The notes beneath the pieces are model-generated. The model was not told where the DNA came from. It ran no database searches and saw only the letters and a program-made list of their open reading frames with translations. Shown one piece after another: positions 141-61,735 of a DNA stretch of 64,000 bases. The translations under genes and the position numbers were made by a program. The stretch is from contig CM071568.1 of the NCBI GenBank assembly GCA_036426205.1, positions 117,512,091-117,576,090 on the forward strand, given 5' to 3'. Source of the DNA: Ascaphus truei. Lineage: Eukaryota > Chordata > Amphibia > Anura > Ascaphidae. Within the stretch, counting starts at the first letter, position 1; each line of letters opens with the position of its first letter.

Positions 141-316
141 CCCCCGCCGCAGTACAGGCCCGCCGTAGCCAGCAGCGCGCGCAGGGCCCCGCCACCCCCC
201 CAACCCCCACAGCACAATGACTTCCCACCCCCTTAACTTTGTGAAACAAAAGTCACAAGACAGGCAAAATACATCTGTTAAAGTGCAGTTGTCTGTTTAT
301 TTCTATATAATAATTG

Positions 317-1117
317 TGTGCAGTGTGCAGTGTGTGTGCAGTGTGTCAGTGTGTGCAGTGTGTGCAGTGTGAGCAATGAGCAGTGTTTGTGCAGTGTGCA
401 GTGTGTGTGCAGTGTGTCAGTGTGTGCAGTGTGAGTAATGAGCAGTGTGTGTGCAGTGTGTCAGTGTGTCAGTGTGTGCAGTGTCAGCAATGAGCAGTGT
501 GTGTGCAGTGTGTGTGCAGTGTGCAGTGTGTGTGCAGTGTGTCCAATGAGCAGTGTGTGTGTAGTGTGTGTGCAGTGTGTCCAATGAGCAGTGTGTGTGC
601 AGTGTGTGTGCAGTGTGTCAGTGTGTGCAGTGTGAGCAATGAGCAGTGTGTGTGCAGTGTGCAGTGTGTGTGCAGTGTGTGTGCAGTGTGTCAGTGTGTG
701 CAGTGTGTGTGTGCAGTGTGTGTGCAGTGTGTGTGCAGTGTGTGTGCAGTGTGAGCAATGAGCAGTGTGTGTGCAGTGTGAGCAATGAGCAGTGTGCAGT
801 GTGTGTGCAGTGTGTGTGCAGTGTGTGTGCAGTGTGTCAGTGTGTGCAGTGTGAGCAATGAGCAGTGTGTGTGCAGTGTGCAGTGTGTGTGCAGTGTGTG
901 CAGTGCAGTGTGTGCAGTGTGTCAGTGTGAGCAATGTGCAGTGTGTGTGTGCAGTGTGCAGTGTGTGTGCAGTGTGTGTGCAGTGTGCAGTGTGCAGTGT
1001 GTGTGCAGTGTGTCAGTGTGAGCAATGAGCAGTGTGTGTGCAGTGTGTGTGCAGTGTGGCAGTGTGAGCAATGAGCAGTGTGTGTGCAGTGAGTGTGTGC
1101 AGTGTGTGCAGTGTGCA
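317..1117. repeat. TG-rich minisatellite (GCAGTGTGTGT-type units)
   Basis: About 800 bp built from short variants of a cagtgtgtgtg unit, interrupted by recurrent 'gagcaatgagcagtgtgt' and 'ccaatgagcagtgtgt' higher-order units. Open frames on both strands encode only Cys/Val/Ser/Gln or His/Thr/Leu low-complexity strings and are by-products of a repeat that is free of stop codons, not genes. Confidence 0.93.
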
Positions 1118-1124
1118 AAAAAAA

Positions 1125-1198
1125 TATGGGAGCCACGGGAAAACCGCGTTATAAACGAATCGCGGTATAACGAGGCGCGTTATAACGGGGTTTAGCTG
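1125..1198. mobile_element. right terminus of a pogo/Tigger-like DNA element
   Basis: The block has several variants of cgcgttataacg and ends in gggtttagctg followed by TA. That is the reverse complement of a CAGCTAAACCCCG-type terminus with a TA target site, as in pogo/Tigger-like mariners. No matching left end is visible, so the copy is partial or the minisatellite lies inside it. Family assignment is inference from terminus and target site. Confidence 0.45.
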
Positions 1199-1560
1199 TA
1201 TATATATTGTATATAAATATATGTGTATATATGTGTATATTCACACATATATATCTTTTGAATAAAATAGTCTTTTAGTTTAACCCTTTGGCCAAAGTGT
1301 TGTCAGCCCTTGAGCCCCTCCAAGGCAGACCACGTCTCAAGGGTCCCAACACTAAAATAGATTCTTAATAACCTGTATATTACCAGGAAGAATGATTTAT
1401 AATAAATCTGTCAAAATTAGTTGCATAGTTCTAAGTCTGATTGAAGCTCTTATTAACCGGTATAATACCAGGAAAAGCACTCTGTATTAGATTTGTCGCA
1501 ATCATCCTGGATGCAAGTTCCCATGGGTGTGGAAGGTGCAAAGGAATGAGCTTTAACCAT
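1199..1560. other. AT-rich non-coding stretch, nothing recognised
   Basis: It starts with TA-rich simple sequence at 1200-1250 and continues as ordinary AT-rich DNA. No ORF, terminus or RNA gene could be supported. Confidence 0.5.
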
Positions 1561-1599
1561 TTAGAAGTGAAAGATTTCTTTTAATGTCACATCCTCTTC

Positions 1600-2138
1600 A
1601 AAAGAAATATTTCCCAAACCTCCCATTCTTGCGTTCCGCCAACCACCAAACCTCAAACAAAAATTAGTCAACAGAAAACTTCATAACGAACTTAAAGACA
1701 CTGATAATGGCACAAAACCGTGAAACTACACACGTTGCAAACTCTACAAACATATATGCCAAGATCCCACAGTCAGTCACAACCATGGAACAATCAATGT
1801 TAAAGGATCATACAGCTGCACATCCAGGTATATGATTCAATGATATGTATATGATTCAATGCAACAAATGTGACCAAGGTTGCTACATTGGGGAAACCAG
1901 CCAAAAACTACAAGGCAGAATGAATATGCACAGACACGCTATACTCCACCACGAAGAAGGAAGATACTGCTCACCAGTGGGACATCATTTCTCACAATCG
2001 GATCATTCCATAAATGATTTAAAAATCAAAATCCTCAATGGAATGTTTAAAAGCACCCAAGAACGGAAAACATTTGAGCTCAGAATGAGAAGACTCTTTG
2101 ACACCAAAACAAGATGTACTGCCCCCTCCCATCCCTAA
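1600..2138 (+). pseudogene. Penelope-like element, C-terminal GIY-YIG endonuclease fragment
   Basis: The frame 1845-2138 translates to a GIY-YIG-type module: a paired-cysteine CNKC motif, then CYIGET, SQKLQGRMNMHR and a downstream VGHHF. This arrangement is typical of the C-terminal endonuclease of Penelope-like retroelements, which nicks target DNA to prime reverse transcription. Upstream, 1600-1840 continues the homology in other frames (a K/RxK..CKLYKH-like segment), so the ORF is frame-disrupted and 5'-truncated. No reverse transcriptase domain remains. The same strand carries a hammerhead-like motif about 90 bp downstream, consistent with the 3' part of a PLE. Certain as a PLE relic; not functional. 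Confidence 0.8.
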
Positions 2139-2227
2139 TTCTAACCTTCCTTATCTCTGTTTTAACACCCCTCCAGTGCCTCTCTGTCCCTGTCTGAGTC
2201 ACAGAAACCTTTGTATATCCGTATTGC

Positions 2228-2268
2228 TTGACCTGAGGAAGAGAGGAAAACTCTCGAAAGCTTGTCCT
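2228..2268 (+). ncRNA. hammerhead ribozyme-like motif of Penelope-like element
   Basis: The sequence contains core CTGAGGA (fits C-U-G-A-N-G-A). It is followed by a five-base-pair stem II (gagag / ctctc around gaaaa), the GAA of the second core strand, and a short palindromic stem III (agct) followed by tgtc. Stem I can pair gac with gtc. Short palindromic stem III is the form expected of PLE-borne hammerheads, which may act as dimers. It lies just downstream of GIY-YIG coding on the same strand. The motif is seen directly; activity is inferred. Confidence 0.6.
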
Positions 2269-2559
2269 ATGACATAAATTGTTAGTCCAAATAAAAAAGG
2301 TATCACCTAATACTGAAGAACTCATTTATTCTGCAATATATATATTGCAATATGCAATATATATTCAGACAACATACAAGGAGGGTGGTACACACACACA
2401 TTGCACCCACCTTGTCTGTTATCTGAACCTCTCTCAAGCATAAAAGGTATCAGTGAAGGTTGAGTAGGTAACGTCTTGAGGTTTATTCAATGTACAGGGT
2501 ACCTGTCTTTAGCTGATAGGGCATTGGCCCTTTAACTAAAAAAAAACAAACAAACAAAA

Positions 2560-2855
2560 AAAAAAGACATAAAAGCCTTCATGCGCCCCAATATCTCCTC
2601 TCCCCACCGGCTCGCGCCCCCCAAACCCCTCCCCGGCGTCAAATGACGTTGCAGGGTTGTGTGACATCACATGATGCCGGTTGCCATGGAGATGCGTCGT
2701 TGGATCCAAGGTAAATTAAGAAGTTACAGAGATCTCACTTGATCCCTGGCATTTATTTTAAATGCCTTAGGGGAAGCGTGGGGTCTCTGTAACAGCCACA
2801 CCCCCCACCAAATCTAGCGCCCCCCACTTTGCACACCGCTGCACTAACCTATTGG
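2560..2855. mobile_element. hAT-like non-autonomous element (MITE)
   Basis: Its right edge, cactttgcacaccgctg, resembles the reverse complement of the CAGGGGTGCGCAAACTT terminus seen at 6568. The two copies share a core with gcgtcaaatgacgttgc and cacatga motifs. An internal hairpin is formed by ttacagagatctca near 2723 and ggggtctctgtaa near 2780. A related inverted copy lies at 39180-39402. No transposase is encoded. Confidence 0.55.
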
Positions 2856-2859
2856 CTGG

Positions 2860-4900
2860 TTACTACTCACCAGCACAGTGTTTAACTGACTTAACACTGC
2901 AGTTGCTTTACCTTGAAGCTGCGACCACAAAACATAAAGCGTCCTGCTACTAAAAATGCTCCAGTTTGCAGGAGTGCTGTGTGCTTCTTCGTCCTGTCAG
3001 CAACGACTTCCTCCCAGTCTGCAGCTTGGACTCTTTATCAGAGCCTGACTCTACCTCAGGTGCAGCCGATTAGTCAAGGTCTGTATGAATGAACCCTTCC
3101 AGTGTTGTACCCAGGAAATAGGGGACAGTGGAAAAAAATGGACACTAGTTGGACAGCCAATCAGGCATGGGCGATATTGTAAAGCTGGATGATATTGGTG
3201 TTGCAATGGACTTTTTTCAATCATCTACCAAATCAAGAAACAGTGAGAAATCCTGGTACTGATCAAGTGAATATGTAAAATAAAGGATGGTAATTAAATG
3301 ATGGGATTACAGTTACATAGATTCATGCTTTGTACACTTGTGAGATCCATTTCCAGGACATAGAAATCTAATGTGTGATGTCGAAATCCCGTCAAGACCT
3401 GGTGTTTTTGCTATTTCAGAATTCAGTAAAAATACCTTTGAACTGTACATTGGGGAGTATTTTCTATTTATCAGCACGGTCTGTTGTGAGCTACAGTATT
3501 AGCGTTTATTTCCTCTTTATTGTCTGTAATTTGAGGCCTGATCAGCAAACGTATATACTGAAGTGAGCTTCCTTTGGCATCTAAAGAATTCAAACAATTT
3601 AGATAATGTTGTGTGTACAAGACTGGTTGTAAACTCAGAGGGTATAGTGTAAGAGAAGGAAAGGAGGGTTGGTATTGAAAACCACAATCACTTTTGTTTT
3701 GTTTTTACAACTGAAACATGTGAACATGGTGTTGAATCCATCCCCACCAAATGGGGACGCAAAATGATATACGAGTTAGCTAATTCCTAAAGTGCACTTT
3801 TAATGTCTCCATAAAGCTGCATAATCTCAACAGTCTAATATGATATCTGAAAAGGAAACATACATAAAATATTATTACAGGAAATCTCCTGAAAGGCAAA
3901 GTGGAAATATGCTATGCAGAGTGTAATCTGAACATTACAGACAGCAGTACCAGCACTACAATATACAATTTACTGAGCGATCAATGTGTCAAACTCGAAA
4001 CAGAAGCAAGAAGGCAACCAGATGTCAAGGATTATGTCAAGACACCCAGTTCCTGGAAATCATTCAGTGGGAGCGTGGTCCGGATTTAAATGTCTCCATC
4101 GGGTCAGAACAATATTAGCATAGCCCTGACAGAGACGCAGAAAATAAGCAAATTGATATTTGAAAACCAAACTTCAGATATCCAAAATCAAATTCACACA
4201 CAGAAACAATTACAATAACCATTCCAATCATGATCAATGATGGACACATTATATTTAGCAGAAGAGCACAAAATTGGTTCACAAACTATGTAATATTTTA
4301 AAGAAACAAGCACATTTTAAGCATCTCAATCCTAGTAACAATTCTGATCTTGATTCATTTCTGAATGGAAACAGAAAAAGAGCACTTAAATAAATTGATA
4401 GTTCATGGTCTTACTTATGATGGATGACACCTACATTATAGTATGATTGTGAAAAAAGGCTGAATATGAATACATGCATCATTTGCATCTCTGCATTAAA
4501 AAAATTAAGTTCATTTCAGAAAGGATAGCTTCTATTTTCTCTATGAAAGAAAAACTGTGCATTTGATTGAGAAACTACAATAAAGAAACAGGTAAATGTT
4601 TCATAGATACATCCACACAATGTATATTTCAAATATGTTACTTAAAATACAAATGACATTCACAACTGGGGTGGAGTTAACGAATAGGTTTTTAAATTGA
4701 CAGGATACCTCGGTAAGCAAAACTCTAACATTCTGTATGGTTCCAGGCAAATCCATTTAGTGCGGATGTAATATACTGTTCTGCAATGCTTTAGGGGCCC
4801 CTCTAGGAATTAGTAAGAACAAAATAATCAGTAGGAGACTCATTTACTGTATACTGTATGTCTTATAAACAAGAGAAACGCGGAGGACGCCAGGGGGCCG
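2860..4900. other. non-coding, no gene recognised
   Basis: Roughly 2 kb of AT-rich sequence. The short open frames at 3375-3566 and 3901-4089 have no recognisable domain, weak start contexts and no neighbouring splice structure; they are treated as chance. Confidence 0.5.
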
Positions 4901-5110
4901 ATAAAGAATGAGGGCCACCTGCGACCTTTGTTTGGGCTATAAATAAGAGACACTTGGGGGTGTTATTATGCCAGCTACACTTGAGAAAGACAGTTGTATC
5001 TGCCGAAACATTGGCTAAATAAATAGTTTTGTTTTTGCAGAAATCCGTAGTGCCCTGCTTCTAATTTGGCTTGCTGACTTTGGAGTACAGACAGGGATTC
5101 CCTGAAGCAG
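4870..5110 (+). mobile_element. degenerate Penelope-like terminal region
   Basis: The sequence contains a tataaataag stretch, then cttgagaaagac...ctgccgaaacattggc followed by taaataaatag. This matches the decayed pattern TTGAGAAAG...GCCGAAACGCGTTG that recurs at PLE ends, for example at 54366. The hammerhead core is altered, so no ribozyme is claimed. Confidence 0.4.
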
Positions 5111-5918
5111 GAGCACCAGTGATTATGTTGTTATATATATTACTTCTAGTGTGCAGCAGATATCTGTTGTATTATAAGCAAAGGAAACCTTAACCAAAAT
5201 GTAGCTGTTAAAATCAAATGGGAGTTTTAAGCAAGGAAACATTAGCTACCAAAATGATGGCTAAAGTTAAAATGCCACAAGTGCCAAATATCATTAAACA
5301 GGAACCCAATTACAAATGATAACAACATCATAACATGATTCTACAGTGCTCAGTAGTTGTATACTTTACTGTCTCTTCTAAATACCTAGTGTTTATTATC
5401 CCAACCCAATGTTATAGTGCAGATGTAAGGGCAGTCTGCTTACCTGCCAAACAGGATATGGAAATCAAGAAAATACAATTCAGATCTGCATGACGTCTAA
5501 AGAATTAGTCACTGTCTCAGAATTTCCTACAAGCGTCAATCTTTATTTGTCCAATGTCTTTCAAGATTGACGGGGTGTTGCTACGTATAATGTCACTAGT
5601 TTTTTTTTTATATAGAGCAAGTGCTCATCTTCTTTAGTTGGGTTTGGTTAGTAAGTTGTAAACATGCAAAATATGCTTAACCTCTTCAGTGCTGGTAAGG
5701 ACTGCAACAAGCTTATGGCGGGCAGTGCCAAAATCTATGGTGAATTACCATAATATAAACAACTCTAATTTAATGTTTGCCTCACGGGGTGGTGGTTTTG
5801 GCACTAAAATGACAGTAACAGGATCAATTTGAACATGACTGTTTATAAAAGGGCTGCTTGCAACATGGGAAAGGTTAACATTAAGCAAATGGAGCAGGCA
5901 AGAGAGGAGTCACTTTAC

Positions 5919-6290
5919 ACAGTTTATTACGCAGACTTGGCTAGCTATGTCTCATACACATTTCTGTCATGATCGAAGATGGTGGCGAAAAATCAGCAAA
6001 ACACACAAGGGGGTAATTCTATACACGCCAAGGTGGCTGTACGGGCATTTTTCAGTCTAAACTCCTAATAGACCTCAAATGGGATTTTTTTGTCAGAGAA
6101 TGGCCGCTTCGCAGTATATAGAATAAGGCCCTAAATGGAATATGTATTAGTATACCCGCAGAAAAATGCTCGGACAGCCACATCTGCGCATATAGAATTA
6201 CCCCTGGTGTGTTTTGCTGACTTTTCTTCACCCTTCATGCACAACAGTTATGTATGAACATAGCTAGCCAAGTCTGTCTAATAAACGTGC
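5919..6290. repeat. long imperfect palindrome (fold-back MITE)
   Basis: Left arm 5919-6058 and right arm 6152-6290 are inverted copies. Shared segments include cagacttggctagctatgt, tcagcaaaacacac, ggtaattctata and ggctgt.cg.gcatttttc. The loop is about 90 bp. It encodes nothing. The arm sequence without an obvious target duplication suggests a fold-back-type non-autonomous DNA element. Confidence 0.8.
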
Positions 6291-6567
6291 ATAGATCTGA
6301 ACAAACGTAAAAAAAAAAATGTTAAACTTTGATACGAATGTTAGACAATACACTATCGATGGAAACAGAAAAACTGAATTTGCATTAAAAGAGTTTATCT
6401 ACTCTAAAATTCAAAAAAGTTTTACACAATTCTTTATAGGGCGACACTTCCTTTCTCCCCTGAAAATCCCTGTTACAGAAAAAGGACAACATTGCAGAAA
6501 GAGATGAAGCTGAAATTCCAATCTGATATTACTGTCCTCACTTGAGAGGGTCAGCCCATACAGTAAA

Positions 6568-6790
6568 CCAGGGGTGCGCAAACTTCTTGAGCTGCGCCCC
6601 CCTCCCCGGCAGCCGCAGAGTTTGCACCCCTCTCCAAGGACACAGCGTCAAATGATGTTGCGGGTCATGTGACGTTACGTCCCGTGACCCCGCTGCGTCA
6701 TTTGACGCGTATTGCCATGGCGACTTGTCACGTCACATGACTTGTGGAGTCATTTGTATAATCTCAGGCTGTAACTCCAACCCCTTGGAT
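6568..6790. mobile_element. hAT-like non-autonomous element, left end
   Basis: It starts with caggggtgcgcaaactt, a hAT-type terminus, and continues with gtcaaatgatgttgcgggtc and cacgtcacatgac motifs shared with 2640-2700. It abuts the 5'-truncated LINE that begins at about 6780. Confidence 0.5.
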
Positions 6791-7105
6791 ATCATCTGTG
6801 GTGTCCACAAGGCTTTGTTCTGGGGCCCCAACTCTTCTCAGTGTTCATCGTCTCATGATCTTCCCACAGCTTGTAAGGGAGCTTCAATACACGTTAGCAG
6901 ATGACACAATCTTATATGCACACAGCGATAGCCTCTCCGACCTTGAACACATACTTCAATCTGACTTTTTGAGACTGGAAAATTGGATTTCCCAAAACAA
7001 ACTGTTTTTAAACACTGACAAGACTGTAACAATGGTATTTGGGACCAACGCTACATTTTTAAAGCTTCCAATGACTGAGCTCCAGATCAGAACCAACACA
7101 ATCCT
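6780..7105 (+). pseudogene. L2/CR1-like LINE reverse transcriptase fragment, part 1
   Basis: Reading across a frame change gives a CPQGFVLGPQLFSVFI motif (about 6802-6855) and then ADDTILYAHSDSL (about 6897). These are the RT motifs that precede and contain the catalytic ADD of non-LTR retrotransposons. After it come LENWISQNKLFLNTDKT and MVFGT, typical of the CR1/L2 clade. The copy is 5'-truncated (no endonuclease), frameshifted between the two motifs and interrupted at about 7105 by an insertion. It continues at 7905. Confidence 0.82.
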
Positions 7106-40067: not shown

Positions 40068-41054
40068 ATGCCCATAACTCGGGCCACGACAAAAAGCACG
40101 AAGAGAAAGTCCCTGGATTTGAGATCCTATTTCTGGCACACAGAGCAAGTAAAGGCCAGGGACGAGAGGGCCATGTCTGCAGGGGGGAGTTCTGACACAG
40201 ATTCCACGCAGGGCAGAGGAGACCCAGAGGAGGATGCGGGGATGCAGCCCGTCCTAAGGAAGGACATGACTAAGTTCCTAACGGAAATAAAAGACTTTTT
40301 CCGTAGTGAAATAGATGGGCTGCGCAAGGACATACAGGGCATAGGAGAACGCACCCACGAATTGGAGCAGCAGATGGATGTCTCTATGGAGTGTCACCAG
40401 CACACGGGACAAGAATTAAATCACATAAAACAAAGGCTGCTCGAGCTGGAAGAGAAGCAAGAGGACGGAGAAAACAGGGACAGAAGGAACAATCTCCGGC
40501 TGAGAGGCATACCTGAGGAGGTCACGGACATCGAGGACTTTGTGGAGAGGTGGATGGAGTCCCTGCTGCCAGATAAGTCCCCTTCTGAGCTCCAACTGGA
40601 CAGATGTCACCGTGCCTTGCGAGCGAAACCTCTTCCCAACAATCCCCCACGTGATGTCATCCTGCGCATTCACTATTTTAAAATAAAAGAGGCGCTTAGT
40701 AAAATCACAAGGGCATCCCCCACCCTCCAATTCGAGGGAGTGAAGCTGGCTGTTTACCAGGACATCTCCCCCACTACTCTACACAGACGACAGGCACTAC
40801 AGCCCCTTACAAAAATACTGAGAGAGAGGGGCATACGTTATAGGTGGGTTTTTCCCTTTGGACTCCTCGTCATTAAGGATGGCAAAGCCCGCACCATAAG
40901 GCATCTTGAGGAGGGGGCAGCACTCCTGCAATCCTTAGGAGTTGGGGACAAGCTCCCGCAGCAATCAGAGCAGCGCCCGATTGCAGAAACCTCCTGGACA
41001 CGAGTGAGCAGGGCGGCCGAGAACAGGAAGACCAACAATAAAAACAAACCCTAA
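40068..41054 (+). CDS. L1/Tx1-type LINE ORF1 protein (RNA-binding)
   Basis: A 328-residue intact frame. Residues 1-62 are basic and then acidic/polar and disordered. About 65-138 form a heptad-rich coiled coil (EIDGLRKDIQGIGERTHELE, IKQRLLELEEKQED). From 139 comes RDRRNNLRLRGIPE, the signature at the start of the RRM of L1 ORF1 proteins, followed by a C-terminal domain (RASPTLQFEGVKLAVYQD, RRQALQPLTKILRERGI, FPFGLLVIKDGKARTI). L1 ORF1p trimerises through the coiled coil and coats LINE RNA as a chaperone. A tatataaa lies upstream at about 39993. ORF2 does not follow: Harbinger-like sequence begins about 110 bp downstream. The intact frame suggests a young copy. Confidence 0.85.
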   Translation: MPITRATTKSTKRKSLDLRSYFWHTEQVKARDERAMSAGGSSDTDSTQGRGDPEEDAGMQPVLRKDMTKFLTEIKDFFRSEIDGLRKDIQGIGERTHELEQQMDVSMECHQHTGQELNHIKQRLLELEEKQEDGENRDRRNNLRLRGIPEEVTDIEDFVERWMESLLPDKSPSELQLDRCHRALRAKPLPNNPPRDVILRIHYFKIKEALSKITRASPTLQFEGVKLAVYQDISPTTLHRRQALQPLTKILRERGIRYRWVFPFGLLVIKDGKARTIRHLEEGAALLQSLGVGDKLPQQSEQRPIAETSWTRVSRAAENRKTNNKNKP

Positions 41055-41161: not shown

Positions 41162-41520
41162 GGGCCTCATGCAGTAAGCGTTGATAAGGGAAATATGGCC
41201 ATGTTATAGCCAAAATTGGGTTTGAGATTCAGTAAGCGCCGATAAGTGCTTCATATCGCCAGGTTTCGGAGCCGATAATTTGGTTATGGCCAGTCGCCTG
41301 CCGATAAGCCTGTTTTCGACACTGATCGCCACTTTTTTAAATCGGCTGGATTCAACAAAAAAAAACAGCTTATCGGGGCTGATCGGCACTACGAAATTGA
41401 GATGTTATGGCCGATTTCTCCCGCCAACTAAAGTTGGCATTTTGGACGGGAGAACGATCGCTAAGGCTGCCGGAACGGCACTTAGAAAAAAAAAATCTTC
41501 TGTACATCAATGGAAGTCAA
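41162..41520 (+). mobile_element. Harbinger-like terminus with CGATAAG subterminal repeats
   Basis: After a TAA comes gggcctcatgcagtaagcg, a Harbinger-type end. The next 250 bp contain several gataag / cttatc motifs (at about 41184, 41240, 41303 and 41368), plus related gatcg motifs. Subterminal motif clusters like this are usual binding sites for transposition proteins. A diverged copy in the same orientation starts at 48756. The element start is well supported; the right end was not found. Confidence 0.65.
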
Positions 41521-42440
41521 TGGAGCGGGGACGTATAACAGTATAGTACTGTTTACGTTTCATTGCTCACAATACAAGGGGGATTTGCATTACAGTGTGG
41601 GGGCATTCCCTGCATTGTGTCACAGCTGATGTGTCTTATTTGCATAACATTCGACTTTTACATGTTTTCAGCATTTGCGGGTCACATTACTCATCATGTG
41701 ATGATGTGGCAAGGGAAAATACTATACTACACTCTTAAAGGAGAACCTCACATCATATCACACATTTTACTCAACTCAGCGACAATTATTTACATGATGT
41801 CACACATGTCACACATACACCGTATATTCATGTTCCTTTACATTACACAATGCTTGTAATGTGTCACGCATCTTTAAACCTTCATGTACATCTAAATTCT
41901 CATGTTTACATCTACGTTTGGGTCCTCCCTATTTTCATGACGTCACTTATTGGACGCTCAATCACATTGCATGTTTACATAGTAACCGTTGCATTACAAG
42001 CACTTCAACCTAACTTATACACACATGTACAGTAATTCATCATTGGGACACCTTGTAAACTCATTCTATAGCAACTATCCTCCTTACACAAATGCATGCA
42101 TATGCACACGACTATTCATTGTTGCCAACATGTCACAATAACATGGCTAATTACACATGTTACACAAAACTTTTCCCACGTCAATCTCAGCCTTTTTGTC
42201 TCATTACATGACTGACTCTTGCGTTCACAAGTGTTACATGCATTGCACATGCAACTATTTATTTGCAAGCAATCTTTGTACAAAGCTTCACGTCACATCA
42301 TTGCCAAATATCATCATTCCCTGCAGAATACACACAACAAATACTTAGAACAACAAGTGCACACAGCTTGCCACAGAAGTACTTTATTATGTTAATGTAA
42401 CACCTTGCATTTTACTATGTCACCTGACATCATCACATAC
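41521..42440. other. 5' non-coding part of the Harbinger-like element
   Basis: AT-rich with repeated catgtt/cacat phrases. Open frames here have no domain. It leads into the transposase promoter. Confidence 0.45.
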
Positions 42441-42441
42441 C

Positions 42442-42449
42442 TATTTAAA
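42442..42449 (+). promoter_or_regulatory. TATA-like box of the transposase gene
   Basis: tatttaaa followed by ggacgc, about 42 bp upstream of the transposase ATG. A similar tttttaaggacgc occurs at 46267-46279. Confidence 0.4.
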
Positions 42450-42490
42450 GGACGCACATTACCTGCTCATTCACAGCTACTCATTTCAAA

Positions 42491-43796
42491 ATGTTGCGAA
42501 TGTTTAGGAGACGCAGGAACATTCTTTTCTATGACATGCTTGCTGATCAAGAGAATGATATAGGGCAAGGTAGGGACACACCGAGGGACAGTGACAGTGA
42601 CGCGGATACGACAGGGACAGGGAGAGGGACAGGAGATCAGAGGAGAAGACAGAGGAAACAACTTGTGCCTCGTCCGCGTCTGTACAGGGAGAGAACCCTG
42701 TTAGATGGGATGAGTGAGGAGGAGATTGTAAGTCGCTATCGTTTGAGTTCAGCAGCAATCTTATCTCTTTATGAGGAGATAAGGGGTGATTTAGATTTTT
42801 TCACAGCCAGAGGTCGTGCAGTCCCTGGGCTTGTTAAAATGCTGTGCTCATTACATTATCTTGCTTCCGCGTCATACCAGACAACTGTGGGCATAGTGGG
42901 CGGGGTCTCGCAATCTACATTCTCGCGGGCCTTGACCCAGTTTCTCTATGCACTCAATAGACGCGCTAGGAATTATATTCATTTTCCTACAGAGGCAACA
43001 GAGTGGCTGGAAGTCAGGACTGGCTTTTATAATATAGCAGGGATACCATCTGTGCTGGGTGCAATCGATTGCACACATGTTGCTTTGATTGCACCTAGTC
43101 AGAGTGAGCATGTGTACCGCAATCGGAAGCACTACCATTCACTCAATGTACAGGTGGTATGTGATGCCACGATGAGGATAATGCATGTGGTACCCAAGTT
43201 CCCTGGTTCCAGTCACGATTCCTCTATCCTGAGGAACTCTTCAGTCTTCCATGCGTTCGAAGAGGGTCATTTTGAACCTGGTTGGCTGCTGGGTGAGTAC
43301 ACATTTACATGTTCTAACACAAAACACATTTTGATTTAGGAATGTTGGCATTGTACAATTTGATCACTAATGTCAGCTTATGTGTGCTCCATTCATTATA
43401 GGTGACTCAGGATACGGAATTAGGCCGTGGCTCTTGACTCCGGTGCTAAACCCTCAAACTGAAGCAGAGGACAGGTACAATGCAGCCCATATATCTACAA
43501 GATCTGTTATAGAGAGGACATTTGGCCTACTCAAGACCAGGTTTAGGTGTCTGGACAGAACTGGTGGGGCTCTTCTATACAAGCCTCAAAAAGTGTCTGA
43601 TATTATCCTTGCCTGTTGCATTTTGCACAATGTTGCACTCAGGCACAATGTACAGTCAGACCTAGCTGAGGCTTTGGTAGACGAGCATCCCACCCATGTA
43701 GCTGCTGAAAATGAACAAACAGCCAGTGGTGGCCAGACACGACAGAATCTCATCAATTCATTTTTTTCTTGTAAGTACAAACTCATATGTTCCTAG
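42491..43796 (+). CDS. PIF/Harbinger DDE transposase, two coding exons
   Basis: Exon 1 42491-43292 and exon 2 43402-43796 are separated by a GTGAGT...TATAG intron (43293-43401) that keeps frame. The product is 398 residues and matches the HARBI1-like DDE_Tnp_4 family in length. It has a basic/acidic N-terminus, a helical region about 75-160 (SRYRLSSAAILSLYEEI, VGGVSQSTFSRALTQFL), then the catalytic residues D193 in AIDCTHV, D243 in GSSHDSSIL and E305 in SVIERTFG, plus GDSGY at 268-272 across the splice. The enzyme cuts and pastes elements with TTA/TAA targets. No stop or frameshift, so it is potentially functional. A second possible donor at 43771 with acceptor at 43861 would end the protein after NSFFS. 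The convergent forkhead ORF lies 2.8 kb downstream. Confidence 0.93.
43293..43401 (+). other. intron of the transposase gene
   Basis: Donor g|gtgagt and acceptor attatag|gtgac. Splicing joins GWLL to GDSGYGIRPWLL, restoring the conserved GDSGY motif. Without splicing the frame ends after a short non-homologous tail. Confidence 0.85.
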
Positions 43797-43861
43797 TACT
43801 ACTTTTATAGTTTAATTATGTTATATTAACAATAATGTTTCTTTATATAACCTTCTGTTAG

Positions 43862-44990
43862 GACACAGATGAATATGGGTTGCACACCTTTCTTTTCTCT
43901 GCTGTGTGCACAAAGGGATTTGGCACCGGTATGTTATTGTTGCACAGGTTATATAATCCCTCTTCAATTGTACTTTAGTTGTGTGTATGTGAATACAACT
44001 TGGGTAACAAAGCAATAATATTTTAGCATTGTGTTATTCCTTATGCTAAGACAAAACACATATTATGCCCATAATCATTCATGCTTCTAGTATGCTTACA
44101 TACAATGTTATTGGTGCAGTGTAACATGTACATCCAGATGATGTGTACACCAGGCTGATTTACATTTTGAATGTCATTAAATATACATGGTGTTGCACAT
44201 TTAACACCAAATACACACTTTGATGTGTTCTTTACGGTACTGAAGATGGCATGTCAATGTTTGCAATTTATATATTGTTCCTTTGCATTATAGGTATATT
44301 TGCAGTATGACTGATCATGGTATGTATATTTGCTGACATCTCTCATAAGACGTGGCTACCTCAATCTTCCTATAATTATTGGAACTAAAAACCCAACATA
44401 TTGGTTTAAACACAAATGTTACATATATGTACTTTCTGTATCATGTATATGCATTTAGCTACTCTTGAGGTTTCATGTGCATTGTATTACAAAATGATTA
44501 CTCACATTTCATCACATTTTATGTATGTTTCCTTATAATTTCCATTAATGTAATATAGAGGTGGTTGGAGAAAAGGGGATAACTGTACTTATTTGTTTAC
44601 TTACGGGAGCACATTCATCACTAGCATAGACACACTTTTTAAGACAACTGTTTGTGTCTCTATCAATTGGTGTAGGATCCATGTATAACACCGACAAATA
44701 ATAACACCAGCTTTATTATGGTAGCTTATATCATCATATTGACTATACTATGTATTTCTAAACGATTAATAAACACAGTAAACTATAGTTAGTTAGGTTA
44801 ATGAAATATACACAGAAACGTACTTCATAACATGATGGTGATGTCATATTCAGAACATCATGCATTGGAGGGGACCATAACATCTGGCCAGTAACATTAT
44901 TTGCTACAGTCCCAAACCATTTTATCTACATACCCATGTAACAAGAGATTTTAAAAATAAATGGCTACTTGGTTGTAAGTGTCCTTTACA
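43862..44990. other. non-coding interior of the Harbinger-like region
   Basis: AT-rich, no domain. It could contain the 3' UTR of the transposase. Confidence 0.45.
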
Positions 44991-44994
44991 TTGG

Positions 44995-45241
44995 GAGAAG
45001 GAGTGGCTCACTGAGTAAAGACACACACTGGCACTAATAGTTTGAAGCAGGGGAGTCTGGTTCAATTCCCGGTGTGGGCTCCTTGTGACCTTGGCCAAGT
45101 CACTTTATCTCCCTGTGCCTCATGCGGCAAAAAAACATTTCACGGGCCAGGGACCTCAGGCTGAAACATGTGTCTGTAAATCGCTGCGTACAACTAGCAG
45201 CCCTATACATGAACATGCTCATATTATTATTATTATTGTTA
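44995..45241 (+). mobile_element. tRNA-derived SINE with MIR-like core
   Basis: The 5' part is tRNA-like, with an A box (tggctcactgagta) and a B box (ggttcaattcc). It is followed by a core ttgtgaccttggccaagtca and ctccctgtgcctca typical of MIR/CORE-type SINEs. The 3' end has gctgcgta...agcagccctata and an (att)n tail. Polymerase III type. It lies inside the Harbinger-like interval and is therefore younger than that element, or is part of its host sequence. Confidence 0.85.
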
Positions 45242-45244
45242 CAT

Positions 45245-45790
45245 AGTTTCGACAGTCATACGTTCCATTACATATTAGAATACACAAATGTGTTAGCAGA
45301 GTGGGAATGGTTGTTATATATAAAACACACCATGTCATAAAATGTTAGTAGTCATTAAAGAACACTCAATAAAAATTCATGAGGCACTCTTTTGCAACAT
45401 CATTATGTTAATTAAGTGCTTATGCAATATAGGCATAAGGGTATCACATTTTTAATTGTTTGTTAATAAGCGCTGCAAGCAATATAAAATTAGTTCCATA
45501 TGTAGTATAGTAGTCGGTGGCTCCTCCTCACAATCATCTCATATAAAGGTAGACTCTTCTGAAATCATACATTGATCCGATTGTATCTTCCCCGACATCT
45601 CTGAAATACAGCAAACACATGATGGTCAAAGATGGCACCTTACTAGATATGCATCCGTGACAACGCGTTACGCAGCTCTATATGATTGTGTAGATACACA
45701 CGTCAGTCACTTATATGTTAGAAGTAAAACTGTTCATCAGTATGTAATGTTTCTTTAAATTTGTAGCAGGCATAACTATGTATAAGAAGT
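45245..45790. other. non-coding, no gene recognised
   Basis: AT-rich; nothing supported. Confidence 0.45.
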
Positions 45791-46204
45791 GAACGTTGCC
45801 TGTATACTGAAAGATGTGCGCGCACATCTTTGTGTGCGCACGCACTTCACGCTTGGCTCCACTAACTGTTAGCGCATGCGCAAAACAAAGCGTACGTTGT
45901 GCGTTCAATACATGTTGAAAATACCAGTAAACATAACATCTTTATTTCAAATACAATGAAGACGAAACTACATTCGTTCTAAACGAGTACATCTGTATTC
46001 TTTTTAAACAGACGTGTTTGAACAGAAAGCACGGCCGATAACACAATGCGCAAATGCAATACGTGTGACGTCATGTTAAGCCAGCGTGAAACGCACGCTA
46101 ACACTCCTCCCACTCAATTAACATTCGGCTAACGCCCAGGGTACGCCTACAAACACTGAGCCGCACGCATCACACACTGCAGTTACCGTTACTATAACAA
46201 AACA

Positions 46205-46361
46205 TGACAGCCAATAGGCTTTGAGGCGCGCACGTCGCTTGGGGGCGGGACTTACATCAGTAATCCTTTTTAAGGACGCCTTGGCCCATGACAAGGGTCC
46301 CACGTCATACGTGGTGGACCCGGTTTTCAATGTTGTAGATGTTGCATGATAACAAAACAGG
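46205..46361 (+). promoter_or_regulatory. possible core promoter with first-exon donor
   Basis: Within a CpG-richer stretch (45800-46340): CCAAT at 46211, gggggcggg GC box at 46241, TATA-like tttttaagg at 46267, and a good splice donor cag|gtatgt at 46360/46361. An acceptor-like ttttttaacgcag is at 46587. It points toward the 3' end of the forkhead ORF on the opposite strand. Element order is seen; promoter function is inference. Confidence 0.35.
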
Positions 46362-46612
46362 TATGTGTTAGAGTAATGGAAAAATGTTGCTAATATGTTT
46401 AAAGGGATAGGAAAGTACGTATATTTATTCCGTCAGCAATGTGTACTACTCTTTCAGGTTCTACTATATTGTATTAGGAAACAATTTGTTTGTGATCGCT
46501 ACATGTTATGCAGTCTGCAATGTTACGCTGTATCCACGCATTGAAAGTGAAAATGGTGGTTACAAAAAAAAAAATTTTTTAACGCAGAGTCAACGTATAA
46601 CGATTGTTATAT

Positions 46613-47281
46613 TTACCATTCTTCTAGAATTAACTCTTCGCCTGGCTGCAACTGGTCGCTCCAGAAATGCAAGGCATTTTCATCCACGCTTAACCCAACC
46701 GCTGAATCCAGTATGGCACATATCTCCTCCAGGATGCGCTCATAGGAATCGCCACTGCTTTCTTCAAATAATTGGTCGGGAGGTAGGTTCATTTCTTCGG
46801 GTTCCCATTCCAATGCATTTTCAGCTGAAAGGCTTGGTACATAATCATAGTACTTTTGTTCTTGTACAATGTGGGTTTCAGGAATGGAGGCTGCAGATAT
46901 TGCAGCACGTATCGATTCAAACGGATCAGTAGTAGCGGATACATTGCTATTGCCATTAGGAATAAATATGCCTTTCACGACAATATAAGTGCCGTCTTTC
47001 AGGAGAAATTGTTTTTCCGGGGCAATCTTCCAGAAACCATAGGTGTGTTGTAGCTTATCCTGGTCACGTTCAAAAAAGTCATTACTTGATAAAGTGAATC
47101 TTATTGAGGAATTAAAATTCCGTGCATGCTTACGGTCTTGGTAATAAGGATATTTTGCTCGAATGAAATCATCGATTTGGCGTGTGCTTGCTTTCTGTCC
47201 GCGACTGTTCAAGATGGCTTCACAGATCATGTACTTATACCCTAAAAGGGGATTAATATTGTTAACGAATTCATCAGCCAT
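46613..47281 (-). CDS. divergent forkhead (winged-helix) protein
   Basis: Single-exon frame; the chosen ATG at 47281 has G at -3 and G at +4 and gives 222 residues. An upstream in-frame ATG at 47386 would add 35 residues of poor character. Residues about 11-94 align with the forkhead domain: YKYMICEAIL (helix 1), ASTRQIDDFIRAKYPYYQD (helix 2), NSSIRFTLSSNDFFER (recognition helix and turn) and YGFWKIAPE (wing strand). The normally near-invariant NSIRHNLS reads SSIRFTLS, so the DNA-contacting H is F, and the W before it is F. The C-terminal third is acidic (EWEPEEMNLPPDQLFEESSGDSYERILEEI), as in an activation domain. It converges on the Harbinger transposase. It could be the element's second protein or a captured/duplicated host Fox gene. 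The domain call is strong; the role is unknown. Confidence 0.85.
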   Translation of the reverse strand: MADEFVNNINPLLGYKYMICEAILNSRGQKASTRQIDDFIRAKYPYYQDRKHARNFNSSIRFTLSSNDFFERDQDKLQHTYGFWKIAPEKQFLLKDGTYIVVKGIFIPNGNSNVSATTDPFESIRAAISAASIPETHIVQEQKYYDYVPSLSAENALEWEPEEMNLPPDQLFEESSGDSYERILEEICAILDSAVGLSVDENALHFWSDQLQPGEELILEEW

Positions 47282-47384
47282 GTCTGAGTAGCACAAAAGC
47301 TGTGTGCAGGTCTGTGTTATTTGCTCATCAAAATGAATGTGCTGAATGGCTAACAAACTCCTGTTTTTCCTTGTCAAGGTCAAC

Positions 47385-47640
47385 AAAACTAACTACTTTG
47401 ACTCCTTATTTCAAACGCCAATTGGATTTGTTTGTCTAATTGGGTTAACAGTTGTGGTTCGTGATATGGGACTGTGGGAGAAACATTTCTCCTTCTTTTA
47501 TCTCGTTTGTGAAAAACATCCCTAGACTTTGAATGCGTTCACATAGTGTTTTTTTGAAAACTAACAAAGACCACTGTGTGAAAATATTTCTTAGCCAGGC
47601 ATATCAGTAAAAACACACCTGCAAAAAGAAATGTTTTTTC
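47385..47640 (-). promoter_or_regulatory. upstream region of the forkhead ORF
   Basis: On the minus strand a gagataaaag (about 47497-47506) and a ccaattgg (about 47418-47425) precede the ORF by 140-225 bp. Weak TATA- and CCAAT-like matches only. Confidence 0.25.
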
Positions 47641-47699
47641 CCCGCTTACATTTCTGTGTGTATGTGAAAGTCTGGTTAACTCCCTGTCTGCATGAGTTT

Positions 47700-47790
47700 A
47701 AATACGTGTGTATATATATATATATATAAATATATCTCTCTTATAAAAATATATATATATTTATATATTATATTTTATTTTTTTTAATAT
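47700..47790. repeat. TA-rich microsatellite
   Basis: (TA)n with tata/taaa interruptions. Confidence 0.9.
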
Positions 47791-47884
47791 TGCAGGAGTA
47801 CACACAACATTGATGGCATTAAGTATACCTTGTATGAAACCTATTTAAATGGTGAGAAACATGATTGAATTAAGTAATAAACAT

Positions 47885-48205
47885 TTTACCCATGGAGACT
47901 GTGATGGCAGATACAATAGATGTGTTCAAAAAAAGGTTGGACATCTTTTTAGATGGAAAGGTATACAGGGATATACCAAATAAGTGTACATAGGAAGGAT
48001 GTTGATCCAGGGATTAATCCGATAGCCAATCTTGGAGTCAGGAAGAATTCATTTTTCCCCTTAATGGGGTTTTTTGTTTGCTTCCTTGGATCAATAAGTA
48101 AGTATAGATATAGAATAAAGTATCTGTTGCTAAAATTAGCAGTGCTGAGGTTGAACTTGATGGACGTACGTTTTTTTTAACCTCATCTACTATGTAACTA
48201 TGTTT
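47885..48205 (-). repeat. interspersed repeat, family C, inverted copy
   Basis: Its reverse complement matches 61430-61735 almost throughout (gttacatagtagatgaggtt, caaacaaaaaaccccattaa, ccctggatcaacatccttcc, tatccctgtatacctttcc). Low divergence over 300 bp means a recent repeat. Class not resolved. Short frames in both copies are by-products. Confidence 0.85.
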
Positions 48206-48755: not shown

Positions 48756-49600
48756 GGGCCTCATGCTATAAGCAGCGATAAGCCCTTATCGAAACGAAAA
48801 AGCCTACAGTGATTCAGTAAGCCCAATAAGCTGGCGATAAGAGCAAAAATCAGCGGGTATTTTTGCCGGGGGAAAAAAGCCAAACGACGCGGTCATACGC
48901 CGCTTATTCACCAGCTTCCAAACTCGCTCAATTCTAGTAGCCCCGAGTCAGCTTATCGCGACAGATCACCGCTCTAGAATGGAGATTTCTCTCCAAATCG
49001 TCCCGCACAAAAAGTTGGCAACAGCAGGTGTGAGAAAACTGCCGAGAAGAGGCGAGACGGGACTTAGAAAAAAAAATGCATTTTTTCCTGCATCGGATTA
49101 TGCCGGGAGACACGATGCATGAAAAATGCATTTACAGTCAACTTCATTACCTTAGTGGCTAACTGCTTAAGGCAATGGAAGGGTAACCACCAGTGCATGC
49201 TTAGTGTGGTAGCGGGGGTGGGTGAAGTGGTATTTGCCCTCGTGGGGGTTTAGGCTGCGCAGGGCTTGCGGGTGGACTAACCCCTCATTACCTTAGGCGG
49301 TTAATAACCGTTATGGGTAATGAAGGTTAACCCTTCCCGCTACCCACTAGTAGGCCTAAACGTCCATCCTTGGGGCTATACCCTTTCACCTACCACCGCT
49401 ACCCACAATTAAAAAAAAATAAACACACCAACAGCCCTACTAGCCACCTCTAGACCACTAAAAAACCATTACAATTTAATAAACAATAATATGCAACCCA
49501 CCCACCCCCTGTATCCCCTATAAAACCTTATTTTTCTTTTTAATGTAACCCTGGTCCCCGTAGCCCCTACCTCCTGGACTGGGCGCTAGGCAGCGGAGGC
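48756..49600 (+). mobile_element. second Harbinger-like terminus, diverged
   Basis: gggcctcatgctataagcag with gataag motifs at about 48776 and 48837, a gttggca and an acttagaaaaaaaaatg block, in the same order as in 41162-41500. It then runs into ccttagtggctaactgcttaaggcaatg, which links it to the non-autonomous family at 27190. The orientation is direct, not inverted, relative to 41162, so it is not simply the other end of the transposase-bearing element. Confidence 0.55.
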
Positions 49601-56179: not shown

Positions 56180-56580
56180 GACCCCTTAATCACCTTATCG
56201 GATAATAACCGCAAAGGTAATTAAGGGGTTAAGCCACCCTGGTCCGATACCCACCCTTCACCCATTCATTTGTACAGTGGCTTCATCATGCAACTATATA
56301 TATATATATATATATGGGTTTATGTGCCGGTTTTTCTACTGAATACACGCTGCTTTTTGTACCTTTGAGTGTGCTGTCTCCTTCTTGCCTCGTGATCCTG
56401 GATCTACTCGTAAGAATAGAACCAAATCCCTACTATAATTATATATATATTCATATATATATATAATCTATCCTTATATATTATATATATATAGTACTAT
56501 ATACACACACACATACATATCAACAGATTAAATAAAAGTAAATATATAATCATAAAGATATAAGCAGTAATGGTTTTGAA
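56180..56580. other. non-coding with TA/CA microsatellites
   Basis: (TA)n at 56295-56315 and 56440-56530 region; no gene. Confidence 0.6.
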
Positions 56581-56584
56581 CCAA

Positions 56585-56727
56585 ATCAACCAAAAAAACT
56601 ACTCGCCACACAAAAAAATCTACTCGCCACCTAGTACCAAATGTGTGCTGCTTGGGCCAATATTTACTCGCCCGGGGGTTAAATCCACTCGCCCGGGGCG
56701 AGCAAATGTATAGGTTTGTCGAACACT
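56585..56727. mobile_element. hAT-like terminus with actcgcc repeats
   Basis: Several actcgcc copies, then gcccggggcgagcaaatg and tcgaacactg before TA. The complement, cagtgttcgacaaacc, resembles a hAT-type end. The left end was not found. Confidence 0.4.
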
Positions 56728-56920
56728 GTATATATGCGCTAAGAGCCCCACGAGAACACCTACTACAATACAGACAGAAAGAACCTACCACACGCATATC
56801 ACTAGTGGCCACATACAACCCTACCCTAGAGGGAATACTAAAAATAATCAAAGATCTGCAACCCATGCTGGAAGAGGATGTGACCGCTTTATCAGATTGG
56901 GAGCATGTATTTGGTGGTGA
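56728..56920 (+). pseudogene. Penelope-like element, linker fragment
   Basis: The frame contains RQKEPTTRISLVATYNPTLEGILKIIKDLQPMLEEDVTAL. The R(I/V)xLVxTYxPxxxxLxxIIxDLxPxLxxD pattern is the segment between RT and GIY-YIG in PLE-type proteins. It is truncated on both sides, joined to the Gypsy element near 56920. Confidence 0.5.
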
Positions 56921-57661
56921 GGTATCCATGACCGTTCCTCTGGTCCAAACCCTTTCCAGTAGACCAAATACTGAATGGTTCCTTTTGATGATCTTGAATC
57001 GATAATGGACTGTACCACGTACTCTTACTGTCTTTGGACATTATAGGAGCTGCCGGTGCGAAGGAAGGATCTGGAAAGAGAAAGATCTGGAAGACGGGCT
57101 TTAAAAGAGAGACGTGGAAAACCGAGGGTATCCTCATGGAAGAGGGGAGTTGGAGGCGATATGCCACAGGGTTAATTTTTTCAATGATTGGGTAAGGGCC
57201 CAGAAATATTGGTACCAACTTGATTGTAGGTGCCTTGAGTCTGATGTTTTTTGACAATAACCACACCTTGTCTCCTGGTTTGAATTCTGGAACTTCACGA
57301 CGGTGACGATCCGCCCCGAGCTTTTGTCTGATGTTGCTTTTTTTAGATTCTCTTGAATTATCCTCCATGACTCTTGCAAGGAGCGTATTCTATTGGCCGC
57401 CGCTGGTACACCATAAGGGGATGAGGTGACAGGAAGTCGTGATGGGTGGAATCCATAGTTGATAAAGAATGGTGACTCCCGCATGGATTCGTTCCTAAGA
57501 CAATTGTGGGTAAATTCGGCCCAGGGGAGAAGGTCCGTCCAGTCGTCTTGGGTGTCAGATATGAAACAGCGCAAATACTGTTCTAAGGCTTGATTAGTTC
57601 TCTCTGTCTGGCCATTGGTTTGAGGGTGATACCTGGAAGAGAAGTGCAATGAAATACGCAA
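56915..57661 (-). pseudogene. Gypsy integrase C-terminal half and chromodomain-like end
   Basis: The frames encode SSRYHPQTNGQTERTNQALEQYL (contains the catalytic E), DDWTDLLPWAEFTHN, SPFFINYGFHPS. After a shift near 57350 come FKPGDKVWLLSKNI, LKAPTIKLVPIFLGPYPI and RIPSVFHVSLLKP, the GPY/F module. The end EVESIQDHQKEPFSI-like stretch (partly frame-broken) matches the start of a chromodomain, as in Sushi-type chromoviruses. Integrase inserts the cDNA and the chromodomain guides it to chromatin. Broken by frameshifts. Confidence 0.85.
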
Positions 57662-58266
57662 TCTTTAAGAGAACGAGCACCAAAATTTGGGGATAAATTG
57701 TGAGCCTCGGTTGGAGACTATGGTTAGAGGCATGCCATGAATACGAAAAATCGCCTTGATGAAAATATCCGCCAGTGTGGCAGAATTAGGAATTCCCTTC
57801 AATGGGATAAAATGTGACTGCTTTGAGAATCAGTCGACAATGACCAGGATACTGTTCATAACTTTGACAAGAGCAATTCGACAATAAAGTCCATGGACAA
57901 GTGGTTCCAAGGGCTATCACCGCGGTATAGGGAGAGAGTGTAAGAGTCCCGATGGTTTACTGCGTGGAATCTTGCTATGCGTGCATGTGGAACATGCCTT
58001 GACGAATTCGTTGATATCTCCTTGCATATTGGGCCACCAAAGGTTAGTACGATAAGGTCAGTGGTTCTTCTGGTGCCTGGATGTCCGGCGGATTTGGAAG
58101 AATGACCCCACTCCAAAATCTTCCTGCGAAAGGATGGTGCAGCAAACAAACAACCCTCTGGAGCCTGTAGACCCTCAGGAATGTTGGATTGGTCCACCAG
58201 TATGTCATCTAAAACATTGAATGTGTTAGCGGATAAGATATATTTGGATGGAAGAATAGTCTCCAA
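57662..58266 (-). pseudogene. Gypsy integrase N-terminal half
   Basis: The frame has FRRKILEWGHSSKSAGHPGTRRT (zinc-binding H-H part), then PWNHLSMDFIVELLLSK, with the first catalytic D in MDFI. Past the stop the homology continues as FIPLKGIPNSATLADIF and GMPLTIVSNRGSQF. The second catalytic aspartate, normally in SDRGSQF, reads N here (near 57715). So the catalytic triad is lost in addition to frame breaks. Confidence 0.82.
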
Positions 58267-58299
58267 GTGATCATCTGGCTTGACCTCGACTAAGAACTG

Positions 58300-59490
58300 A
58301 CGGGATAGGGCATCGGCTTTCAGATTTTTAGAACGAGATACTATATAAAAGAAATTATATAATGAAATCGTAAAAAAAAAAAAAGTGACCAGCGAGTCTG
58401 GCGAGCTCCTAGACGACGGGCACTCTCTATGTACAGCAAATTATTATGATCCGTTAGTATGGTGATCGGACTCCAAAAGGTGTCTCCACTCTTCCAAAGC
58501 GAGCATGATAGCTAGAAGCTCTCAATTCCCAACGTCATAGTTCTGCTATGCCGATGAGAACTTCTTTGGAAAAAAAAGCGCAGGGATGTTGTCTGGCTTG
58601 AAGTGACTGTCTCTGTCATAAGATGGCTCCGGCCCCAATGTCGGATGCGTCCACATCCAGGGTGAATGGTAACTTGTGATCCGGGTGTATCAAATTCAGC
58701 ACTGAGACGAAGGCCTTCTTAAGCAGGTCAAAGGCTTGGATAGCCACGAATGGCCAGGAAGTAGCATCTACCCCTTTTTTGTCAAAGCTGAGATGGGGGC
58801 TACTGTGGACGAAAAGTTCCGAATAAATCTACGGTAGTAGTTCACAAACCCCAGGAATCATTGAATAGCCTTGAGAGAGGTGGGTCGCGGCCACTCCATA
58901 ACTGCTTTAAGTTTGGCAGGGTCCATAGAAAAACCAGAGTCAGAAATAATGTATCCTAAGAATGCCGAGGAAGTCTGGTAAAATTGACATTTTTCCAATT
59001 GGGCGAAGAGGTGATTCTCACGGAGGCGTCATAGTACCTGTTTGACGTGGTTGATGTGCTCCGGAAATGAATTTGAAAAAATCAGAATGTCACCAATGTA
59101 GACGATGATAAAATGATTGAGAAGATCCCGGAATTTCTCATTCACAAAATCTTGGAAAACGGCCAGAGCATTGCAAATTCCAAAGGGCATGACCAGGTAC
59201 TGTTAGTGCCCGTCTCGGGTGTTGAAGGCCGTCTTCCATTCGTCACCCTTATATGCACCACGCAAGTCTAATTTAGTGATGATGGTAGCACCCTGGAGGT
59301 GATCGAAAAGTTCTATGATCAGTGGTAATGGGTAACGATTTCTTAGTGTGATCTTGTTAAGACCTCTGTAGTCAATGCAAGAATGAAGAGAACCAACTTT
59401 TTTCTTGACAAAGAAAAAACCTGCTCTGGCTGGAGAAGAAGAGTTCCATATGAAGCCTTTCTTTAGATTTTCCGGTATGTACTCAGACAT
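58300..59490 (-). pseudogene. Gypsy reverse transcriptase and RNase H region
   Basis: 59203-59490 encodes [52 protein letters not shown] and [11 protein letters not shown] deletion of about seven codons follows GAY, before [14 protein letters not shown]. Downstream in other frames: [13 protein letters not shown] (about 59080-59115), where the active site Y-I-D-D reads Y-I-G-D. Then come LGYIISDSGFSMDP and FLGFVNYYRRFI, and an RNase H start LDVDASDIGAGAIL near 58640. RT copies the genomic RNA; this copy has lost a catalytic D and the frame. Confidence 0.85.
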
Positions 59491-61429: not shown

Positions 61430-61735
61430 ACATAGTTACATAGTAGCTACATAGTAGATGAGGTTGAAAAAAGACATAGGTCCATCAAGTTCAACTTATG
61501 CTAAATTTAGACAACAGATACTTTATCCTATATCTATACTTACTTATTGATCCAGAGGAAGGCAAACAAAAAACCCCATTAAGGGAAAAAATTAATTCCT
61601 TCCTGACTCCAAGAATTGGCAATCAGATTAATCCCTGGATCAACATCCTTCCCATGTATACTTATTTGGTATATCCCTGTATACCTTTCCCATCTAAAAA
61701 GATGTCCAACCTTTTTTTGAACAAATCTATTGTAT
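61430..61735 (+). repeat. interspersed repeat, family C, direct copy
   Basis: Partner of 47885-48205 in inverted orientation. It starts in cttattgcctcaattacatagttacatag-type sequence and ends in gaacaaatctattgtattac. Non-coding. Confidence 0.85.

Follow-up and report, generated by a model that had tools for sequence, protein, structure and literature searches.

A Harbinger-type element with three genes

The window analysed here, a 64,000-bp stretch of the genome of the anuran Ascaphus truei, carries a right-truncated copy of a Harbinger-type element at positions 41162-47886. The element is a young, high-copy PIF/Harbinger-type DNA transposon of ~12.2 kb with genes for three proteins: the DDE transposase lies on the plus strand, and the forkhead and Myb/SANT-like proteins are encoded on the minus strand. 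The features of the window copy, in window positions, are as follows.

41162..47886, plus strand: Harbinger-type element with three genes, truncated on its right; it aligns with positions 1-6748 of the complete copy E003 at 99.4% identity and has a left end common to six other loci
41162..41180, plus strand: left terminal inverted repeat GGGCCTCATGCAGTAAGCG, present in exact inverted form at the right end of E003
41162..41500, plus strand: subterminal region with repeated CGATAA motifs, from motif counts in E003
42491..43292, plus strand: transposase exon 1, with D193 and D243, matching DDE_Tnp_4 (PF13359)
43402..43796, plus strand: transposase exon 2, with GDSGY from residue 268, E305 and the stop codon, matching DDE_Tnp_4 (PF13359)
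46613..47281, minus strand: forkhead gene, 222 amino acids in a single open frame, matching PF00250
47009..47251, minus strand: forkhead domain, residues 11-91 (PF00250)
47886..47887, unstranded: break point; the Myb-like gene and the right terminal repeat, ~5.4 kb, are absent from the window by comparison with complete copies

Both transposase exons match DDE_Tnp_4 (E values 8e-20 and 6e-18), and D193, D243, E305 and GDSGY stand exactly where an original prediction, made from the window sequence, had placed them in an intron-containing plus-strand gene. The 15 best database relatives are 45-56% identical, mostly HARBI1-type proteins of caecilians and frogs, and among the matches listed (the best 120 of 551) most are named HARBI1; the transposase belongs to the Harbinger type. 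Three caecilian transposase proteins have additional length, in which no forkhead or Myb domain was found. The transposase reading frame is open in six of seven copies, the window counted, the seventh (L035) having a stop inside an N-terminal repeat. Exon 1 of the copies at L031-L036 contains an in-frame minisatellite of GRGT units that differs in copy number, with a stop within it in one copy.

The forkhead gene is convergent with the transposase gene across a gap of 2,816 bp, in agreement with the predicted 222-residue open reading frame (ORF) about 2.8 kb downstream. It matches PF00250 with an E value of 1.9e-14 and 54 bits, against a curated cut-off of 27; the forkheads of three older subfamilies score 63, 69 and 72 bits (E values 4e-17 to 4e-20).

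A genuine element end lies at 41162, the left terminus: the same base adjoins unrelated flanks in six other loci and two further copies. The sequence GGGCCTCATGCAGTAAGCG occurs in the window at 41162 with no mismatch and at 48756 with three, and never in 100 shuffles. CGATAA occurs four times in the first 500 bp of E003 and once in the last 500 bp; the other segments counted hold one. A second, related left-end sequence, GGGCCTCATGCTATAAGCAGCGATAAG, lies at 48756-48782 in the same orientation, 81% identical to the end of the element; no right end matching it was found within the window.

On its right side the window copy retains 6748 of the 12,157 positions of E003, homology to the complete copy ending at 47886. 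The original prediction had reported no right terminal repeat and no Myb/SANT-like ORF between the two genes; a search of the window for each likewise found none, because the copy is truncated at 47886, before the Myb-like gene.

The complete element was read gap-free from repeat to repeat at L003 (E003, 12,157 bp), where the two ends match in inverted orientation at 19 of 19 bases and the target duplication is TAT/TAT. Both ends were also reached in copies of 12,215 bp (L022, TAT/TAT) and 12,217 bp (L014, TTA/TTA), each with an unread stretch of 3.7 kb on its transposase side. All three copies share the same right end and have 3-bp target duplications, as had been anticipated, but these are TAT, TAT and TTA, and none is the expected TAA. 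Among nine left flanks, TWA occurs in four (TAA, TAA, TTA and TTA), TAT in three, ATT in one and CTA in one; of the complete duplications, one of three is TTA and two are TAT.

In the right halves of these three copies, picked because their element sequence runs on and read for ~6 kb further, Myb-like exons on the forkhead's strand are followed by the right repeat in every case. The Myb/SANT-like gene thus sits to the right of the forkhead gene on the same strand, and its spliced N-terminal exons in the L003 copy match PF13873 (E value 1.5e-10). The forkhead comes as a third gene on top of the usual pair and does not replace the Myb-like partner. In two annotated Ascaphus gene models, Myb-like sequence is fused to stretches of 52 and 48 residues that match the window forkhead exactly, and the 59 database proteins matching one of these fused models are all labelled as Ascaphus or as the window's own. 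Near its C-terminus the Myb-like protein (L037, L038 and L039) has a coding minisatellite of SLPKSPVGE units, variable in length.

Copies, linkage and mobility

A search of the window's own assembly with the window forkhead, in which the best 150 of 6169 candidates were scored (window copy included), returned copies that were all 100% identical after rounding, none with an internal stop. The number 150 is a lower bound and is biased towards intact copies, because only the best candidates were scored. Thirty of the loci picked by forkhead were loaded (L001-L030, of which L004 is the window), and six of the remaining 29 were extended on the transposase side. Between the forkhead and base 41162, transposase included, all six are 98.7-99.3% identical to the window; unrelated flanks follow, the boundary being placed to within up to 17 flank bases added by the aligner. 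The forkhead gene is therefore part of the transposon and not a host gene, and lies inside the element's boundaries at several loci, as predicted, three copies having been followed to both ends. The contrary case raised with the prediction, a single-copy host gene, does not hold: there are at least 150 dispersed copies, and those read lie in the same element DNA. The anatomy of the element and its linkage to the forkhead are close to certain. Recent activity, also predicted, is indicated by the ~99% identity between copies, the at least 150 stop-free forkhead ORFs and the open transposase in six of seven copies.

In 16 of the 30 loci, including the window, the common sequence stops at differing points up to 750 bp rightward of the forkhead start. 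A run of N or a contig end interrupts three more (L023, L025 and L029), and eleven extend further. Element sequence is picked up again further on in L017 and L019, so these two breaks are internal deletions. Five of the 16 ragged ends (L016, L017, L021, L027 and L030) lie at AT-rich repeats, where the alignment may simply end, and about half of the right-end breaks adjoin simple or minisatellite repeats, judged by eye. A retrotransposon-like reading of the fixed left end and ragged right ends was dropped, since complete copies end in inverted repeats and are flanked by 3-bp duplications; it was also weakened by the resumption in L017 and L019 and by the repeats at the breaks.

Forkheads of older subfamilies

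A divergent forkhead, P0003, is 65% identical to that of the window. A search with it, in which the best 150 of 7830 candidates were scored, gave matches 71-100% identical, most with an open frame of ~224 amino acids and 13 with a stop besides the terminal TAA, which was taken as the natural end (checked in L043 and L045-L047). A sample independent of the forkhead was obtained with a caecilian transposase as query, by taking the first 12 loci in order of transposase similarity and reading 3.8-4.0 kb rightward. In eight of these 12 divergent loci (L052-L056, L060, L061 and L063; weak in L056) a forkhead lies where it should and on the strand expected, with identity down to 36%; three of the eight are the older forkheads whose PF00250 scores are given above.

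A profile built from seven element forkheads has FoxC2 as its best solved match (E value 1.3e-12), across the whole domain (residues 10-100), and Fox classes other than FoxC2 match slightly less well. Thus, like Fox transcription factors such as FoxC2, the element forkheads have a complete forkhead domain, but they are very divergent. Where FoxC2 has NSIRH in the recognition helix, the families aligned have SSIRF, SSVRF or TSVRF: phenylalanine replaces the histidine of FoxC2 after the helix arginine, and serine or threonine stands in place of its asparagine three residues before that arginine. The asparagine and histidine of the recognition helix contact bases in structures of Fox proteins with DNA. 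Because the helix departs from ordinary Fox proteins at these positions, the element forkhead probably reads a DNA sequence of its own.

An AlphaFold2 model of the forkhead protein had a mean predicted local distance difference test score of 32, too poor for use. One database search found no forkhead relatives outside Ascaphus (5 matches from 274 candidates); it requires shared five-residue words and the gene evolves fast, so that absence is not implied.

Selection and mosaic structure

The ratio of nonsynonymous to synonymous divergence (dN/dS) of the forkhead domain between the window and six other subfamilies was 0.35 for L043 (P = 2e-4), 0.37 for L047 (P = 8e-4), 0.33 for L054 (P = 7e-5), 0.25 for L053 (P = 9e-7), 0.29 for L055 (P = 2e-5) and 0.61 for L042 (P = 0.048), by one-sided Fisher tests that treat sites as independent, in comparisons that share the window sequence and have dS values of 1.2-1.8, near saturation. 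The values were unchanged when recomputed for two of the same six elements. Five of the six (0.25-0.37) lie near those of the transposase, which were 0.29, 0.36, 0.32 and 0.32 in four older elements (each P ≤7e-8). An earlier run without significance tests, covering all pairs of seven forkhead sequences, gave forkhead-domain dN/dS of 0.37-0.65 with the window and 0.26-0.43 among L043 and L045-L047 (one pair lacking silent changes).

The subfamilies differ unevenly along their length. Against five closer subfamily copies (L042, L043 and L045-L047; L044 aligns only from ~5521), divergence is 0-15%, mostly below 10%, over E003 positions 4081-5760, rises to 14-37% over positions 5761-6480, and falls back to 10-19% over positions 6481-6600, the last 60 bases ranging from 12 to 42%. 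The divergent segment comprises the DNA-binding half together with ~340 bp of sequence upstream of the forkhead gene. For two element pairs, in which both proteins were measured, silent divergence is 1.17 and 1.49 in the forkhead domain versus 0.32 and 0.24 in the transposase, a ratio of ~4 to 6. This excess, together with the jump in divergence, indicates that the forkhead domain of the window's family has a deeper origin, and it was presumably acquired by recombination between element lineages. Joint transfer of the domain and the upstream region is consistent with a reader matched to its promoter, but any recombination tract would leave the same pattern.

Role of the forkhead

The best explanation as a whole is a three-gene Harbinger-type element that uses its forkhead as a self-encoded DNA-binding regulator, to which we assign a probability of roughly 0.58. 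In this proposal the Myb-like protein and the transposase would act jointly in transposition, as in other Harbingers, and the forkhead protein would bind the element's own DNA and most likely regulate the element, driving or de-repressing its own genes. That the forkhead is a functional component of some kind is likely. The narrower claim that it regulates element expression is tentative, with the balance of probability somewhat against it. A broader scenario, in which a self-encoded forkhead has long served a vertebrate transposon lineage as a working third component, its helix re-tuned to the element's own DNA and its domain exchanged between subfamilies as one block with the ~340 bp upstream, must be considered doubtful in its entirety.

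The strongest competitor, itself somewhat unlikely, is that the forkhead is a third transposition cofactor beside the Myb-like protein, and would bind the subterminal repeats and help to assemble or target the transposase. Such a role is consistent with the similar constraint on the DNA-binding domain and the transposase in pairs with both computed, with the non-canonical recognition helix in all families aligned, and with the presence of subterminal CGATAA repeats. However, the known end-binding protein of the zebrafish element Harbinger3_DR is the Myb-like protein (PMC9710019, from the part of that paper available).

By analogy with third genes of other transposons that act on chromatin or DNA marks, the forkhead might instead counter host silencing. 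Precedents among Harbingers are SET in HarbingerS and TET/JBP in fungal PHISTA (PMC12730594, in excerpt); nothing here ties the forkhead to chromatin, however, and its C-terminal half is without constraint in comparisons with the window, which leaves this explanation improbable.

Several observations weigh against the best explanation, as do the limits of the Fisher tests noted above, and some of them would suit a passenger, that is, a captured host forkhead fragment without function. Only two of the eight forkhead-bearing loci picked by transposase (L053 and L054) have a full-length forkhead ORF, although L055, one of the other six, has Ns in its stretch. One element has lost the forkhead segment: in L057 the region behind the transposase leads straight into the Myb-like gene with E003 positions ~3842-6968 missing, which is probably a deletion because L057 is 93% identical over 719 bp to the forkhead-bearing L054. 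In the stretches read of L058, L059 and L062 no forkhead was found, L059 and L062 losing element homology. Canonical forkhead sites (RYAAAYA) are not enriched at the element ends. In eight comparisons of L042 and L044 with L043 and L045-L047, made without significance tests, forkhead-domain dN/dS was 0.75-1.30, and selection on the domain may be relaxed or diversifying there; L042 and L044, which differ little, gave 1.37. The C-terminal half evolves in a neutral-like manner against the window (dN/dS 0.66-1.6, P for constraint 0.59-0.90), and among the other sequences gave values of 0.26-1.07 where computable, again without significance tests. These estimates confine the constraint to the DNA-binding half, and it is clear in most window comparisons but not in all of those among other subfamilies. 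Against a passenger stand the low domain dN/dS in five of the six window comparisons and the persistence of a forkhead in eight of 12 divergent elements, and it is accordingly given only a small chance.

That the forkhead replaced the Myb-like partner, the central proposal of the original prediction, has almost nothing left in its favour: the window copy shows no Myb-like sequence, but it is truncated, and the complete copies, with a Myb-like protein (PF13873) encoded in all three right halves read, refute replacement for this element family. An ordinary single-copy host gene beside an element insertion, for which nothing speaks beyond the forkhead domain itself, is the least credible account: a minimum of 150 dispersed copies exists, and those that were read are flanked by the same element DNA.

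Comparison with known elements

The element resembles the PIF/Harbinger group (PHIS superfamily) in its DDE_Tnp_4 transposase, Myb/SANT-like second gene, terminal inverted repeats and 3-bp duplication, and adds a third gene, the forkhead. Its target duplications (TAT, TAT and TTA) are not strictly the TWA of PIF/Harbinger proper, and its ~12.2 kb compares with ~4.1 kb for candidate autonomous PIF/Harbinger elements (PMC4482050). The sources, in the portions available, give Harbingers two genes, one for the DDE and one for the Myb/SANT protein (PMC4482050, PMC9179366 and PMC9710019). Teleost Harbinger elements share the transposase and the Myb-like gene, and both ORFs persist in all the fish elements of that survey, in the available text of which the words "forkhead" and "third" are absent (PMC9179366). 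Further genes have been gained by the Harbinger-type transposons HarbingerS (SET methyltransferase) and PHISTA (TET/JBP dioxygenase) of oomycetes and fungi; according to the excerpted account, the extra gene there is a chromatin- or DNA-modifying enzyme, whereas here it is a transcription-factor domain, and PHISTA has TA duplications and no Myb/SANT in its third proteins (PMC12730594). No forkhead-bearing Harbinger was found in the open-licence literature, as judged by titles, the beginnings of abstracts and word counts.

Harbingers have thus been described as two-gene machines, and in most of the divergent elements considered here a third gene encodes a transcription-factor domain. If the proposal is true, this is a transposon that carries its own transcription factor, and its at least 150 stop-free copies would seed a vertebrate genome with forkhead genes open to host recruitment. 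With three intact genes, defined ends and young copies, the element offers an experimental system for accessory transposon genes.

Other features of the window

Inside the element, at ~45010-45240, is a stretch resembling a short interspersed element, with a transfer RNA-like box and an ATT tail recognized by eye. ARAGORN found no transfer RNA in it, and L024 holds, elsewhere, a stretch 77% similar. A 328-amino-acid coiled-coil ORF at 40068-41054 ends ~107 bp to the left of the element and by eye resembles ORF1 of long interspersed elements; Pfam gave only matches below cut-off for it. On the minus strand at 56500-58300 are ORFs that resemble, by eye, pieces of a long terminal repeat retrotransposon integrase and a chromodomain. 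An inverted pair of a dispersed repeat, its pieces 76-96% alike, occupies 47911-48137 and 61504-61735, the first of these starting just rightward of where the element breaks off.

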